Of a DNA stretch of 64,000 nt, positions 41,378 to 50,328 are shown piece by piece. The stretch is from Gillisia sp. Hel1_33_143 (GTDB lineage Bacteria; Bacteroidota; Bacteroidia; Flavobacteriales; Flavobacteriaceae): the NCBI RefSeq assembly GCF_900104765.1, contig NZ_LT629737.1, forward strand, positions 1,674,001 to 1,738,000, in the 5' to 3' direction. Each line of letters opens with the position of its first letter. The first letter of the stretch is position 1. A program made the translations under genes and the position numbers. The notes under the pieces are model-generated. The model did no database searches, was not told the origin of the DNA, and worked only from the letters and a program-made list of their open reading frames with translations.

Positions 41378-41476
41378 TCTATCCATAGCGCAAAATATAA
41401 CTCTTAAAATTAATTACTCTAAACACTGATTTTTAGAGGCTTATGAATAATAATTCAAAAAAATATAAAATTATGT

Positions 41477-41508
41477 TTGTTTTATAAAACTTTCTGTCGT
41501 TAACTTTG
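41477..41508 (+). promoter_or_regulatory. Promoter of the met leader and metY operon
   Basis: TTG at 41477-41479, a 21-base spacer and TAACTTTG at 41501-41508 match the Bacteroidetes consensus. Transcription would start near 41513-41515, about 13 bases before the first leader peptide's ATG. I see no second promoter between the two leader modules. Confidence 0.7.
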
Positions 41509-41527
41509 CGGTATAGAATTAAAAAAA

Positions 41528-41596
41528 ATGAATCAAGTAATGTGTAATATGTATATGATGATGTGGGGAAACCTCGCAGCGTACTCTATTGCATAA
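41528..41596 (+). CDS. Met-rich leader peptide 1 of the metY-metX-hom operon
   Basis: This 22-residue ORF encodes MNQVMCNMYMMMW followed by GNLAAYSIA: six methionines, including three consecutive ATG codons at 41555-41563. It is preceded by eight A residues and a consensus promoter and followed 21 bases later by a strong terminator. Codons 17-18 (GCAGCG, 41576-41581) are complementary to CGCTGC at 41625-41630 in the terminator's left arm, providing an antiterminator. A ribosome stalled at the Met codons for lack of charged tRNA-Met would leave that arm free; one reaching the stop at 41594 would cover it. This is the classic attenuator plan. The ORF is too short for gene finders. Confidence 0.82.
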   Translation: MNQVMCNMYMMMWGNLAAYSIA

Positions 41597-41617
41597 CACT
41601 TAACTTATAAGAAATGC

Positions 41618-41649
41618 AAAAAGCCGCTGCCAACCGCAGCGGCTTTTTT
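41618..41649 (+). terminator. Attenuator terminator 1 of the met operon
   Basis: A 13-base stem AAAAAGCCGCTGC / GCAGCGGCTTTTT (41618-41630 and 41636-41648) with a 5-base loop and a T run. It lies between the two Met leader ORFs, in the 5' untranslated part of the met operon, where a terminator makes sense only as an attenuator or if the leader is a separate RNA. Confidence 0.88.
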
Positions 41650-41697
41650 GTTTCCATAAATCGCCATTAAATAAATTTAAATTCTAAAAATAAGAAC

Positions 41698-41796
41698 ATG
41701 ATTAAATATTTCGCAATAGCAACTAATATGTATCAAATGATGCAAATGTGTATGATGTACGCAACAAACCGCTATTGCCAAAAATTCAGGATATAA
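41698..41796 (+). CDS. Met-rich leader peptide 2 of the metY-metX-hom operon
   Basis: This 32-residue ORF begins MIKYFAIATN and then MYQMMQMCMMYA, seven methionines in total, six of them within residues 11-20. It ends RYCQKFRI with the stop at 41794-41796, 25 bases before a second strong terminator. TTGCCA at 41775-41780 is complementary to TGGCAA at 41831-41836 in that terminator, and AGGAT at 41788-41792 can add pairs with ATCCCT. Spacing of Met codons, antiterminator arm and stop matches leader 1, although the terminator sequences are unrelated. I see no separate promoter, so both attenuators would act in series on one transcript. Confidence 0.82.
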   Translation: MIKYFAIATNMYQMMQMCMMYATNRYCQKFRI

Positions 41797-41821
41797 ATTA
41801 GTTTTATATAGTTCAATTCCT

Positions 41822-41863
41822 AAATCCCTCTGGCAAACAAACAAGCCAGAGGGATTTTTTTTT
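41822..41863 (+). terminator. Attenuator terminator 2 of the met operon
   Basis: A 13-base stem AAATCCCTCTGGC / GCCAGAGGGATTT (41822-41834 and 41845-41857) with a 10-base loop and nine Ts. It lies 95 bases before the metY start. Between it and metY the sequence is AT-rich, with three head-to-tail CAATACT units at 41910-41930 and no other visible signal. Confidence 0.88.
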
Positions 41864-41957
41864 ACAACAAAGTCAAGATCAATTATCAATTATCAAAAAT
41901 TAATTTACTCAATACTCAATACTCAATACTAATTACTAACTACTAAATTCAATAAAA

Positions 41958-43250
41958 ATGAGCACACAACAATTCGCAACCAACGCATTACACGCAGGAC
42001 ATGATGTAACCGCCAATGGAGGAACCAGAGCAGTTCCTTTATATCAAACTTCATCCTACGTTTTTAAGAATTCAGATCACGCTGCAAATCTTTTCTCTTT
42101 ATCAGAACCTGGATTTATCTACACCAGACTTAACAATCCTACCAATGATGTCTTGGAGCAACGATTAGCATCTTTAGAGGGTGGGATAGGAGCAGTGGTT
42201 ACAGCATCTGGTGCAGCAGCTATCAATACTACCTTATTGACATTACTTCGCTCCGGAGATCATATTGTTGCTTCTAGTAGCCTTTATGGTGGAACCTATA
42301 ATCTGTTAAGTGTCACTTTACCAAGATTTGGGATCACCACCACTTTTGTAGATCCATCTGATCCTGAAAATTTTAAAAAAGCATCCAAAGAAAATACCAG
42401 AGTTTATTTTATAGAATCGCTTGGAAATCCAAAGCTGGATGTGTTAGACATTCAAGAGATCTCTAAGCGAGCAAAAGAACATAAGGTTCCGTTGATAGTA
42501 GATAATACGGTTGCCACTCCCTCTCTTTTAAATCCAATAAAATATGGAGCCGATATCGTAATTCATTCGTTGACCAAATACATCAACGGGAACGGAACTT
42601 CTTTGGGAGGCGTAATTATAGATGCCGGAAAATTTGATTGGGCGAACGGGAAATTTCCGGAGTTTACAGAACCTTCTGCCGGATATCATGGTTTAGTATA
42701 TCACGATGCTTTAAAAGAAGCAGCCTTTATTGCCAAAGTAAGAATAGAAGGTTTGAGAGATCATGGTGCCGCATTAAGTCCATTTAATGCCTTTCAGATC
42801 ATTCAAGGATTGGAAACTTTAGAATTACGAATTAAGAAACACAGTGAAAATGCATTGGCACTGGCCAAATGGTTACAAGAACAAACTCAGGTAAAATGGG
42901 TGAATTATCCCGGACTTGAAAACAATGAGTATTATGAGCTAGCTCAAAAATATCTTCCAAAAGGGCAGAGTGGAATCGTAACCTTTGGAGTGGAAGGCGG
43001 ATTTGAAGCTGCAAAAGTTATTGCAGACGAAACTAACATCTTCTCGCTACTTGCAAATATTGGAGATACAAAGTCTTTAATTATTCATCCTGCAAGTACA
43101 ACCCATCAGCAATTGAGTGACGAGCAACAAGAATCTACAGGAGTTACCAAAGATCTTATTAGGCTTTCTGTAGGTCTGGAGGATCTAGAAGATTTGAAGG
43201 CAGATCTTCAACAGGCCTTTTCAAAAATAGGAAGTAAAATTCTTCAATAA
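41958..43250 (+). CDS. metY: O-acetylhomoserine sulfhydrylase
   Basis: The 430-residue PLP enzyme of the Cys/Met metabolism family converts O-acetylhomoserine and sulfide to homocysteine. Signatures are ATNALHAGHDVTANGGTRAVPLYQTSSYVF at the start (the TRAVPLYQT form marks the sulfhydrylase branch), FIYTRLNNPTNDVLEQRLASLEGG, ASGAAAINTTLLTLL, LVDNTVATP and the PLP lysine in VIHSLTKYINGNGTSLGG near residue 208. It is followed by metX, which makes its substrate, and by homoserine dehydrogenase. It lies behind two Met-rich leader attenuators. Cystathionine synthases have different motifs at the start. Confidence 0.95.
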   Translation: MSTQQFATNALHAGHDVTANGGTRAVPLYQTSSYVFKNSDHAANLFSLSEPGFIYTRLNNPTNDVLEQRLASLEGGIGAVVTASGAAAINTTLLTLLRSGDHIVASSSLYGGTYNLLSVTLPRFGITTTFVDPSDPENFKKASKENTRVYFIESLGNPKLDVLDIQEISKRAKEHKVPLIVDNTVATPSLLNPIKYGADIVIHSLTKYINGNGTSLGGVIIDAGKFDWANGKFPEFTEPSAGYHGLVYHDALKEAAFIAKVRIEGLRDHGAALSPFNAFQIIQGLETLELRIKKHSENALALAKWLQEQTQVKWVNYPGLENNEYYELAQKYLPKGQSGIVTFGVEGGFEAAKVIADETNIFSLLANIGDTKSLIIHPASTTHQQLSDEQQESTGVTKDLIRLSVGLEDLEDLKADLQQAFSKIGSKILQ

Positions 43251-43333
43251 TGTTTGTTGGTGGATCAAGGCAGCCGGAATGTTCAAATCCTCATGCGGCA
43301 GTTTCGGTTGCCCTTGATCAAATCAATAATTAA
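43250..43333 (+). ncRNA. Structured metY-metX spacer with a 27-codon overlapping ORF
   Basis: The metY stop overlaps an ATG (TAATG), opening a frame of 27 codons (MFVGGSRQPECSNPHAA then VSVALDQINN) that ends 11 bases before metX. The same bases form a long hairpin: GATCAAGG at 43263-43270 and CAGCCG at 43271-43276 pair with CGGTTG at 43305-43310 and CCTTGATC at 43312-43319, 14 pairs with one bulged C and one G-U. It is more GC-rich than its surroundings. Whether it is a coupled small peptide, a translation-control hairpin or an unknown metabolite-sensing RNA I cannot tell. I do not recognise a known riboswitch class. Confidence 0.45.
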
Positions 43334-43344
43334 AAGTAGCAACA

Positions 43345-44358
43345 ATGCTTCAAGAAATAAAAATATCAGAATTTAAAAATAGTTCAGGCGGCGTTCAGAA
43401 CATTCATCTTACGTATGAGATTTTCGGGAAGCCATTGGCAAGTGCTCCTTTAGTGCTTATCAATCATGCGCTTACGGGCAACTCTTTGGTAATTGGAAAT
43501 ACCGGTTGGTGGAAAGAGATCGTAGGAGATGGTAAAAGTATAGATACCCAAGAATATACCATCTTGGCTTTTAACGTCCCGGGAAATGGATATGATGGTA
43601 AGAAAGATCATCTGCTTAATAATTATAAAGAATTTACCCTACGGGACATTGCTAAGATCTATCAAATAGCACTTAATCAGCTTGGAATTACTAAGATATT
43701 TGCAGGTATTGGAGGGTCTATTGGCGGAGCGTTGCTTTGGGAACAGGCAGTTTTAAGTCCGGAACTTTTTGAACATATTATTCCCGTTGCATCAGATTAT
43801 AAAGCCACACATTGGGTAAAAGCACTGTGTAAAGTGCAAGAACAGATCTTGAATAATTCAAATACCCCGGTTGCCGATGCCAGAATGCAGGCAATGACCT
43901 TTTATAGAAGTCCGCAATCTTTTATTTCAAAATTTGGATCACTGCATGGAGAACAGAATTCTAATTGGAATATAGAGGGTTGGTTAGAGCATCACGGTAG
44001 AAAACTGGAAGAGAGATTTCAGTTGGCGTCTTATAGACTGATGAATCATCTATTAACAACAGCAGATATCAGTCTTGGCAATGGAGATCATATAACTGCA
44101 GCTTCCAAGATCAATTCTAACATTCATATAATAACTATTAATTCTGATGGATTTTTTACCCCTTCTGAAAATTGGGAAACCTACGTAAATCTATCACTCA
44201 TCAAAACTAACATCAGTATCCATGAGATTAACTCTATTCACGGGCATGATGCCTTTTTAATAGAATATGCTCAGGTAGCAACATTTTTAAAGCCAATATT
44301 CAACATTAATAAAACACAAAATGAAAAAGATAAACATAGTACTGTTTGGAGTAGGTAA
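43345..44358 (+). CDS. metX: Homoserine O-acetyltransferase
   Basis: The 337-residue alpha/beta-hydrolase transfers acetyl from acetyl-CoA to homoserine. It has PLVLINHALTGNS near residue 34 (oxyanion region), the nucleophile serine in GGSIGGALLWE near 126 (the usual family form is GGSMGG), the conserved FYRSPQSF, the acid aspartate in INSDGFFTPSENWE and the base histidine in IHGHDAFLIE. It is shorter in the lid domain than proteobacterial MetX, as often in Bacteroidetes. Its last 38 bases overlap the start of hom, indicating translational coupling. Operon with metY and hom. Confidence 0.93.
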   Translation: MLQEIKISEFKNSSGGVQNIHLTYEIFGKPLASAPLVLINHALTGNSLVIGNTGWWKEIVGDGKSIDTQEYTILAFNVPGNGYDGKKDHLLNNYKEFTLRDIAKIYQIALNQLGITKIFAGIGGSIGGALLWEQAVLSPELFEHIIPVASDYKATHWVKALCKVQEQILNNSNTPVADARMQAMTFYRSPQSFISKFGSLHGEQNSNWNIEGWLEHHGRKLEERFQLASYRLMNHLLTTADISLGNGDHITAASKINSNIHIITINSDGFFTPSENWETYVNLSLIKTNISIHEINSIHGHDAFLIEYAQVATFLKPIFNINKTQNEKDKHSTVWSR

Positions 44359-45403
44359 CGTAGGGAGTACTTTGATCAAACAAATATTAGAAACCAGACA
44401 GAGCATTTTAAAATCTTTAAATGTAGAGATCAATATTCCTATAGTGGTAAATTCTAAGATCGCTTTTTTCGAACAAAAAACGGTGAGACCTTCATGGGAA
44501 ACAGATTTTAAAGCATTTGGACATCCTTATAAGATTTCAAATATTATCAATCATGTTAAAGCGGAAGGATTGCAGAATGTAATTGCGGTAGATGCCACCG
44601 CCAGCGAAGATTTTGTAAAGAATTATAAAGAGCTAATTAGAAACGGGTTTCATATTGTAGCCGCTAATAAGGCCGCCAATACCTTATCTGAAAAATTCTA
44701 TAAAGACCTTAGAGTTGAGCTTAAAAAGCACAATAGACAATTCTTATACGAAACCAACGTAGGAGCAGGATTGCCAATTATCAAAACATTACAAGATCTA
44801 CACATTGCCGGAGAGGAGGTCACTAAAATGAGAGGTGTTTTTTCGGGTTCTCTGAGTTATATTTTCAATACTTTTTCTAATGAGAACAAGTTGTTTTCTG
44901 AAGTATTGCAGGAGGCGAGAGAGAAGGGACTTACAGAACCAGATCCAAGAATAGACCTTTCTGGGAAAGATGTTGGAAGAAAATTGTTAATTCTTGCAAG
45001 AGAGATCAAGATCAAGAAAGAACTTTCAGAAATTACAATAGAAAATCTTATTCCTAGTCATCTTAACGGGAAAAGTTCTATTGCTCATTTTATAGATAAT
45101 CAGAAAGATCTTAATATTGGGTTTGATGAACGTAAATCGAACTTAAAAAAGGATGAGGTGTTACGACATATTGGAGAATTGGATGTCGCCACCGGAAAAT
45201 TAGAAGTGAAGTTGGTTTCAGAAAAAAGAAGTTCTCCATTTGGAAGTCTTCAGCAAGCAGATGCTTCTTTTGAGATTTATACCAAATCTTATGGAGAAAG
45301 GCCCATCGTAATTCAAGGAGCAGGTGCTGGTGCCGCTGTAACTTCCAGAGGAGTTCTCTCTGATATTTTAAAGCTTTCAGAAAAGATAGAATTTAAAAAT
45401 TAA
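44321..45403 (+). CDS. hom: Homoserine dehydrogenase
   Basis: The 360-residue monofunctional enzyme reduces aspartate semialdehyde to homoserine. It starts INIVLFGVGNVGSTLIKQIL, the NAD(P)-binding Rossmann motif (GxGxxG), then VAANKAANTLSEKFYKDL with the catalytic lysine region, YETNVGAGLPIIKTLQDL, GVFSGSLSYIFNTF and GLTEPDPRIDLSGKDVGRKLLILARE, the standard signature. It lacks an aspartokinase or ACT domain. In this operon it supplies homoserine for methionine specifically, which is likely distinct from the aspartokinase-fused enzyme often found for threonine. Its start overlaps metX. Confidence 0.95.
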   Translation: MKKINIVLFGVGNVGSTLIKQILETRQSILKSLNVEINIPIVVNSKIAFFEQKTVRPSWETDFKAFGHPYKISNIINHVKAEGLQNVIAVDATASEDFVKNYKELIRNGFHIVAANKAANTLSEKFYKDLRVELKKHNRQFLYETNVGAGLPIIKTLQDLHIAGEEVTKMRGVFSGSLSYIFNTFSNENKLFSEVLQEAREKGLTEPDPRIDLSGKDVGRKLLILAREIKIKKELSEITIENLIPSHLNGKSSIAHFIDNQKDLNIGFDERKSNLKKDEVLRHIGELDVATGKLEVKLVSEKRSSPFGSLQQADASFEIYTKSYGERPIVIQGAGAGAAVTSRGVLSDILKLSEKIEFKN

Positions 45404-50192: not shown

Positions 50193-50270
50193 ATGAACAA
50201 CTTTAATTCTTGGAACGCTTGTTATTATTTTTATTTCTACACCAGAGATAAGATCGGGAGCGCCATGTAA
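50193..50270 (+). CDS. Phe/Tyr-rich leader peptide of the aromatic operon
   Basis: This 25-residue ORF starts MNNFNSWNAC and then has YYFYFY at residues 11-16 (50223-50240), followed by TRDKIGSAM and the stop at 50268-50270. A strong terminator begins 21 bases later, and pheA, an aminotransferase, tyrA and aroG-CM follow. ATCGGGA at 50253-50259 can pair with TCCTGAT at 50298-50304 (six Watson-Crick pairs and one G-U), blocking the terminator. Stalling at the Tyr/Phe run would thus allow read-through when charged tRNA-Tyr or tRNA-Phe is scarce. The match between peptide composition and downstream pathway is the strongest evidence. Confidence 0.88.
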   Translation: MNNFNSWNACYYFYFYTRDKIGSAM

Positions 50271-50291
50271 TTAAGTAAGCAAATTATATAT

Positions 50292-50328
50292 AAAAGGTCC
50301 TGATTTTTAAATCAGGACCTTTTTTTTA
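50292..50328 (+). terminator. Attenuator terminator of the aromatic operon
   Basis: A 15-base stem AAAAGGTCCTGATTT / AAATCAGGACCTTTT with a very small loop and a T run, 14 bases before the pheA start. Its position in a leader, after the Phe/Tyr-rich ORF, marks it as an attenuator. Confidence 0.9.

Follow-up and report, generated by a model that had tools for sequence, protein, structure and literature searches.

Tandem Met/Cys-rich leader-peptide attenuators predicted upstream of metY-metX-hom in Gillisia and other Bacteroidota

The metY locus and its leader region

The metY-metX-hom operon of Gillisia sp. Hel1_33_143 occupies positions 41958-45403 (+ strand) of the 64,000-nucleotide stretch of DNA analysed here (the window), and comprises metY, the gene presumed to be controlled, which encodes O-acetylhomoserine sulfhydrylase (41958-43250; TIGR01326 above cut-off; PF01053), a metX-like gene for a homoserine acyltransferase (43345-44358; TIGR01392 below the curated cut-off; PF00561), and hom for homoserine dehydrogenase (44321-45403; PF00742), all on the + strand. 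Upstream, on the same strand, lie one predicted promoter and two modules, each a short Met-rich ORF followed by a strong terminator, as an initial annotation of this DNA had described. The promoter (41476-41508) has TTTG at 41476-41479 and TAACTTTG at 41501-41508, separated by 21 nt, and was assigned by the Bacteroidota consensus; transcription is predicted to start near 41515. Leader ORF 1 (41528-41596; MNQVMCNMYMMMWGNLAAYSIA, then stop) is read from the sequence and kept in the genus. Its end carries region 2 of module 1, the antiterminator half GCAGCG (41576-41581), recognised by helix search and covariation, and region 3 (CGCTGC, 41625-41630) can pair either with region 2 or with the 3' arm of terminator 1 (41618-41648; 13-bp stem, loop CAACC, T-run after); an inner antiterminator helix joins TTGCA (41589-41593) to TGCAA (41615-41619). 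Leader ORF 2 (41698-41796; MIKYFAIATNMYQMMQMCMMYATNRYCQKFRI, then stop), supported by sequence and conservation, contains region 1 of module 2 (GCAATAGC, 41713-41720), the complement of GCTATTGC at 41771-41778, a pairing that may form a 1:2 protector hairpin enclosing the Met codons. Region 2 of this module (TTGCCA, 41775-41780), the antiterminator half, was again found by helix search and covariation, region 3 (TGGCAA, 41831-41836) falls across the 5' arm and the loop of terminator 2, and terminator 2 itself (41822-41857; AAATCCCTCTGGC / GCCAGAGGGATTT, T-run after) was identified by folding and by the module detector described below.

Of the 44 two-module loci collected from related genomes, 36 have the promoter element TAnnTTTG in the 60 nt that precede leader 1, and none of the 44 has it in the stretches that separate terminator 1 from leader 2 and terminator 2 from metY. 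Its absence from both intervals led us to reject a promoter of its own for module 2 or metY; a start downstream of the terminators, which would have spoken against control by the leader, thus has no promoter element to go with it.

Chance does not account for the modules. Against dinucleotide shuffles the folds of modules 1 and 2 have z-scores of -5.0 and -5.7, and a detector that seeks an ORF with at least four non-start Met/Cys codons and a terminator no more than 110 nt away recovers both modules from the real region, and none of 1500 dinucleotide shuffles gave two; one module appeared in 7 of the 1500, none of them (0/1500) with a terminator matching the weaker real one in strength. A stricter detector found no module in any of 1750 shuffles of 175 metY upstream regions, and a chance origin was rejected on the two shuffle tests. 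When codons were ignored and the whole window was scanned on both strands for a short ORF with a close strong terminator, nine matches were returned, both modules among them. The detector makes errors of both kinds: it accepts a few spurious ORFs (e.g., G016 at -992 and G030 at -541), misses module 1 of G104, and in its strict version scores G101, G104, G111, G016 and G025 as one-module.

Rfam gives no match at or above gathering in 41440-41990, where Thr_leader (RF00506; 21.9 of 55 bits) and Phe_leader (RF01859; 20.9 of 55 bits) both fall below gathering, and no T-box family is among the Rfam matches for the leader. SAM-I (RF00162) is absent before metY in the window at gathering score, and a search of the whole genome (Infernal, stricter filters) found none. 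The metY leader likewise lacks SAM-II (RF01726), whose sole match in the genome (41169-41225, minus strand) precedes metK, back to back with the metY leader; SAM-II is matched (E <= 0.001) in 65 of 66 family genomes tested. A known riboswitch or T-box in the metY leader was rejected, there being no Rfam family at gathering score.

Leader peptides and switching helices

Across the 44 two-module loci, module 1 peptides are 19.6% Met and 9.6% Cys and module 2 peptides 22.7% Met and 11.4% Cys, compared with 2.0% Met and 0.6% Cys in the long ORFs of the window. Met stands at codons -11, -12 and -15 in 86-93% of module 1, and Cys is retained through both of its codons (159 TGT, 83 TGC). The leaders are accordingly Met-rich as first proposed, and Cys-rich as well; since Cys codons are enriched as clearly as Met codons, both amino acids are probably sensed. 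Across the genus the Met/Cys core is conserved and the N-terminus of peptide 2 varies, in line with the expectation that Met codons would be conserved and their flanks would not.

Reading frame is preserved as well. In alignments of 30 loci (for module 2, alignment A2, 30 of 34 sequences), gap runs divisible by three make up 81 of 81 inside ORF 1 and 53 of 54 inside ORF 2 (134 of 135 together), and 31 of 92 and 49 of 158 3' of the stop codon in modules 1 and 2, respectively; gap runs share ancestry, and hence these are not independent counts. By this sequence evidence the leader ORFs behave like translated units. The median gap from stop to terminator is 21 nt in module 1 and 23 nt in module 2. 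A recent duplication of one module was considered and rejected, because the two appear to belong to different sequence families in peptide, terminator and antiterminator alike.

The antiterminator of either module joins region 2, at the end of the ORF, to region 3 in the 5' arm of its terminator. The module 1 helix is GCAGCG:CGCUGC here and GCAAGGGC:GCCCUUGC, CAGAGG:CCUCUG, GCAGGG:CCCUGC, GCGGAA:UUCCGC or GCGGGA:UCCCGC elsewhere, and the module 2 helix is UUGCCA:UGGCAA here and GCUAUUACCAA:UUGGUAAUAGC, AUGUAUUACC:GGUAAUACAU or UUGCAGAAG:CUUCUGCAA elsewhere; 16 distinct antiterminator helices occur in 47 module-1 loci and 29 in 44 module-2 loci. Because region 2 is out of place in some rows of the MAFFT alignment (A1), pairs were taken from helices identified locus by locus; such helices are selected for pairing, and the fairer evidence is a swap test, in which each region 2 was set against its own and other loci's partners. 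Own pairs averaged -16.0 kcal/mol against -12.05 for swapped pairs in module 1 (26 representatives) and -15.5 against -12.83 kcal/mol in module 2 (30 representatives), a result reached in 0 of 20000 permutations for either module, and the difference disappeared once region 2 was shuffled (-0.26, sd 0.46, for module 1; -0.08, sd 0.44, for module 2). The test speaks of means only: the own partner is best or tied best in only 7 of 26 rows (module 1) and 5 of 30 (module 2), because partners are common to related lineages and a GC-rich arm can bind many of them. The antiterminators of both modules co-evolve between lineages, and these covarying stems are the compensatory changes that the initial annotation had anticipated.

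The geometry of the switch was assessed by folding with a ribosome of assumed 12-nt footprint placed on the leader, scoring loci in which at least 40% of the terminator 5' arm paired upstream. With the ribosome on the last upstream Met/Cys codon, upstream pairing was seen in 44 of 44 loci for module 1 and 40 of 44 for module 2; with the ribosome on the stop codon, it was seen in 2 of 44 and 15 of 44, such that module 2 separates the two positions less well than module 1. In module 1, the distance from the start of region 2 to the end of the stop codon is 21 nt at 36 of 47 loci. In full-length folds, a mean of 94-99% of the terminator 5' arm pairs with its own 3' arm; the terminator is more stable once its 3' arm is made, and the switch must therefore depend on the order of folding, that is, be kinetic, as is the decision in classical attenuators. 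In module 2, the longest unbroken antiterminator helix has five pairs or fewer in 7 of 44 loci (six pairs in the window), and the terminator of one locus, L102, is probably mis-assigned. Pairing of region 1 with region 2 lies more than 3 kcal below shuffles in 26 of 44 module-2 loci and not in the other 18.

Two alternatives to ribosome-mediated attenuation bear on these sequences. One holds that the RNA alone acts, as a riboswitch for methionine, SAM or another ligand or as a T-box-type binder of tRNA, and that the ORFs are incidental. Strong alternative stems would suit such an element, SAM-I and SAM-II serve the same genes in relatives and the adjoining metK, and conserved stretches beyond the codon run, CTATT in module 1 and the loop GTTCAATTC in many module-2 rows, are not fully accounted for by the switching helix. 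Yet the conserved positions are mostly codons, switching helices and terminator helices, and the frame-preserving gaps (134/135 runs), the enrichment of Met and Cys and the lack of an Rfam match in 41440-41990 at gathering score all count against it, leaving an RNA-only element extremely unlikely. The other holds that the nascent peptide sequence stalls the ribosome on free methionine, SAM or another metabolite, in the manner of TnaC. Residues outside the Met/Cys run are indeed conserved (AA..TIA in module 1, RYCQ in module 2), but they sit where the DNA must form the antiterminator; the order and number of Met and Cys also vary, and peptides of other classes (below) are alike, by eye, only in their Met/Cys richness. 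Peptide arrest is for these reasons quite improbable, and the conservation of the ORFs together with the covarying antiterminator stems supports the reading as tandem leader-peptide attenuators that had been proposed at the outset.

Distribution in Flavobacteriaceae and other Bacteroidota

Within the genus, metY is present in 14 of 16 genomes and both modules in 14 of those 14, Met/Cys codons included; absence of the leaders from close relatives, an outcome that would have told against them, was not seen. In the family, metY is found in 66 of 100 genomes (E <= 1e-100). Among 65 upstream regions (G037, with metY split across contigs, was left out), the strict detector and SAM-I calls give SAM-I without leader in 45, leaders without SAM-I in nine and neither in 11, and setting Rfam SAM-I places against metY places gives the same 45. 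The leader call in one of the nine, G030, is weak (MITAISKHNHCMRMSFLLGTI); among the 11 with neither, G002 has module 1 by eye and G007 has its leaders on another contig. Leader-bearing genomes include Salinimicrobium, Salegentibacter, Christiangramia/Gramella, Flavobacterium and Lutibacter. Of 130 distinct metY regions, 44 have at least two modules by the detector and 12 have one only, the latter including G104, which in fact has both.

Searches with R1 (E <= 0.001) match 168 of 249 genomes, mostly at ordinary terminators; of 30 R1 loci examined, 20 have a Met/Cys leader, 19 of these before metY or metX and one (G007) before a transposase-like ORF. Leaders were present at 13 of 23 R2 loci examined, 11 before metY or metX plus those of G007 and G022, a count that omits L191, L214-L219 and, except for L261, loci of the phylum sample; weaker matches lie outside both counts. 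A second R1 match in G141 falls just after metY. SAM-I also occurs elsewhere at metY loci of this kind: between metY and metX in some leader genomes (G096, i.e. L007, and the Lutibacter loci L134 and L135, by pattern), and about 87-178 nt after metY on the same strand in G021, G025, G047 and G002.

In G007, the leader pair and metY are on different contigs (L004 and L167), with a transposase-like ORF after the leaders and integrase-like sequence before metY (by eye), and the two seem to have been separated by an insertion element. In G022 (L202), degenerate tandem leaders (..AMKMRYQ.. and ..MIMMNKCMKMYQ..) keep their terminators; by eye no recognised met gene lies downstream, and an OsmC-like frame seems to follow.

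In the phylum sample, R2 (E <= 1e-5) matches 15 of 296 genomes. Fourteen belong to the same family; the other, G307, is from another class and has its match 250 nt before metY. Outside the family, 97 metY regions were surveyed, 11 from the same class and 86 from other classes; they cover 96 of the 112 genomes of other families in which metY was matched (G276 contributes twice), a match at threshold being missing in 34 of 158 phylum genomes, and they omit L243 (unusable), L317 (a second copy of G337) and L331 (G188, of the same family). One Met/Cys leader in series with SAM-I was found in 17 of the 97, two leaders in three by the detector, with G307 a fourth by eye and antiterminator search, a single leader alone in one (L333), SAM-I alone in 44 and neither in 31. 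SAM-I was called by sequence pattern in this survey, and Rfam finds it in 11 of 16 sources tested, eight of them among the 17. Every leader detected outside the family belongs to another class (families f14, f21, f22 and f32); beyond Met/Cys richness these peptides have nothing evident in common with those of Gillisia (by eye), and most of the leaders have an antiterminator of the same layout, weak in L283 and L307 (about -10 kcal/mol).

The order of leader, SAM-I (Rfam) and metY can be followed in L272, L300, L322, L282, L303, L283, L307 and L306, the leader of L306 having been identified by eye only, and in L164 (G157) a leader and then SAM-I (Rfam) precede metX. In L331 the order is reversed: SAM-I (Rfam) is followed by a Met/Cys-rich ORF (MNLYFLNTAF...MRMRMPMSCFSYMCA) and then metY, with no clear terminator after the ORF (by eye).

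These surveys bear on a further alternative, that the two modules differ in job, one reading tRNA charging and the other being a leftover, a monitor of translational rate or a reader of another signal, with the series not functional as a whole. Some loci apparently have a single module (by the detector 12 of 130; module 1 only in G021), module 2 discriminates less in folding, and the second slot is often SAM-I in other classes. Against this, all 14 genomes of the genus that have metY retain the pair, and each module conserves its reading frame and has a co-evolving antiterminator; we regard a division of labour of this kind as unlikely. Because both modules are conserved, both would be expected to matter. 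The predicted second gate is a leader in Gillisia, many other Flavobacteriaceae and family f14, and SAM-I in family f21 and others. Homocysteine and methionine control in Bacteroidota is likely, in our judgement, to be a modular relay of exchangeable gates, a Met/Cys leader followed by a second leader or by SAM-I, in which the gene would be transcribed only if both report shortage and sensors would have been swapped in place during evolution.

Proposed mechanism and related systems

Attenuators of trp, his, leu, ilv, thr and phe operons consist of a short ORF rich in the amino acid of the pathway, an antiterminator over its end and an intrinsic terminator. The Gillisia leaders have the same parts ahead of a biosynthetic operon: both modules have a short ORF with codons of the operon's amino acid, an intrinsic terminator between leader ORF and first gene, an antiterminator, in competition with the terminator, that includes the end of the ORF, and control codons just 5' of region 2 with the stop just 3' of it, less sharply in module 2. 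They differ in their Met and Cys codons, in being two modules in series (or one plus SAM-I), and in lying in Bacteroidota. We favour ribosome-mediated transcription attenuation, acting twice in series, that would read the charging of Met- and Cys-tRNA, and give this class of mechanism a probability of roughly 0.87.

In the proposed model, the ORFs, terminators, antiterminators, geometry and co-evolution are computed or observed, and from them we infer stalling, its dependence on tRNA charging, termination and an AND-like series logic. RNA polymerase would start at the one promoter and a ribosome would translate leader 1. When Met-tRNA or Cys-tRNA is scarce, the ribosome would stall on the Met/Cys codons and leave region 2 free to pair with region 3 before the terminator 3' arm exists, allowing read-through; with fast decoding, the ribosome would arrive at the stop codon and mask region 2, and the terminator would form. 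Leader 2 would repeat the test, such that metY would be abundant only if both tests report shortage. Two like gates would multiply repression and steepen the response, and a leader with SAM-I, as in other classes, would combine amino-acid supply with the level of SAM. The model assumes transcription-translation coupling in Bacteroidota, which to our knowledge has been little tested there; if the model is true, close coupling is implied, leader-peptide attenuation with a complete antiterminator extends to the sensing of Met (and Cys), and two such sensors, or one and a SAM-I, are stacked as a logic gate.

The mgtCBR operon of Salmonella serves virulence and Mg2+ transport and answers to other signals. 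Its leader is reported to have tandem attenuators with two short ORFs (PMC3641672), and the Bacteroidota pair differs in having the same codon kind twice. The initial annotation had called a methionine leader peptide unusual; an earlier proposal exists, however, for metL of S. lividans before metNIQ, which also contains Cys (..CMCRRMC..) (PMC8079986), and the arrangement described here is widespread and not limited to one genome. Both are proposed Met leaders containing Cys, and metL differs in preceding a transport operon, in being single and, as far as the available text of that paper goes, in having no typical Rho-independent terminator and no noted antiterminator covariation (PMC8079986). 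Leader peptides with Cys codons are described in Actinobacteria, where no conserved terminator hairpins are reported for the cys cases (PMC1262725), and in Rhodobacterales, where uORFC-8-2 precedes cysS (PMC8632094). Like those of Gillisia, these leader ORFs place Cys codons ahead of genes for sulphur amino acids or CysRS; the codons named for them are Cys codons, and the phyla are others. A 2010 paper states that leader-peptide systems were to its authors' knowledge known only in Proteobacteria and Actinobacteria before their own his case in bacilli (PMC2965389). Closest in genes and logic is a tandem of SAM-I and T-box(Met) before metX and metY, described as responding when SAM is low AND Met-tRNA is uncharged (PMC9481103); the T-box binds tRNA directly, whereas in Bacteroidota charging would be read by a ribosome translating a leader ORF that stands in series with SAM-I, as in other classes, or with a second leader, as in this genome. 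Among the matches listed in the open-access literature, none describes attenuation by a Met/Cys leader, whether ahead of metY or in Bacteroidota. The elements thus have precedents in S. lividans metL and Salmonella mgtCBR, and none was found for their combination.

The same genome, which is 99.98% complete, has hom, metX, metY and metK and no match (E <= 0.001) to MTHFR (PF02219), the MetE C-terminal domain (PF01717) or the S-methyl_trans domain of MetH/BHMT (PF02574). MetY with methanethiol could make methionine directly, and, speculatively, the Cys codons of the leaders may reflect sulphur supply. A third candidate leader of this kind is present in the window at 50193-50323 (+), rich in Tyr, Phe and Trp (MNNFNSWNACYYFYFYTRDKIGSAM, then stop), with a terminator 21 nt past the stop and an antiterminator of about -14 kcal/mol, directly before genes for prephenate dehydratase, an aminotransferase, prephenate dehydrogenase and DAHP synthase-chorismate mutase; judging by its sequence, leader-peptide attenuation may be a general habit of Gillisia sp. 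Hel1_33_143.
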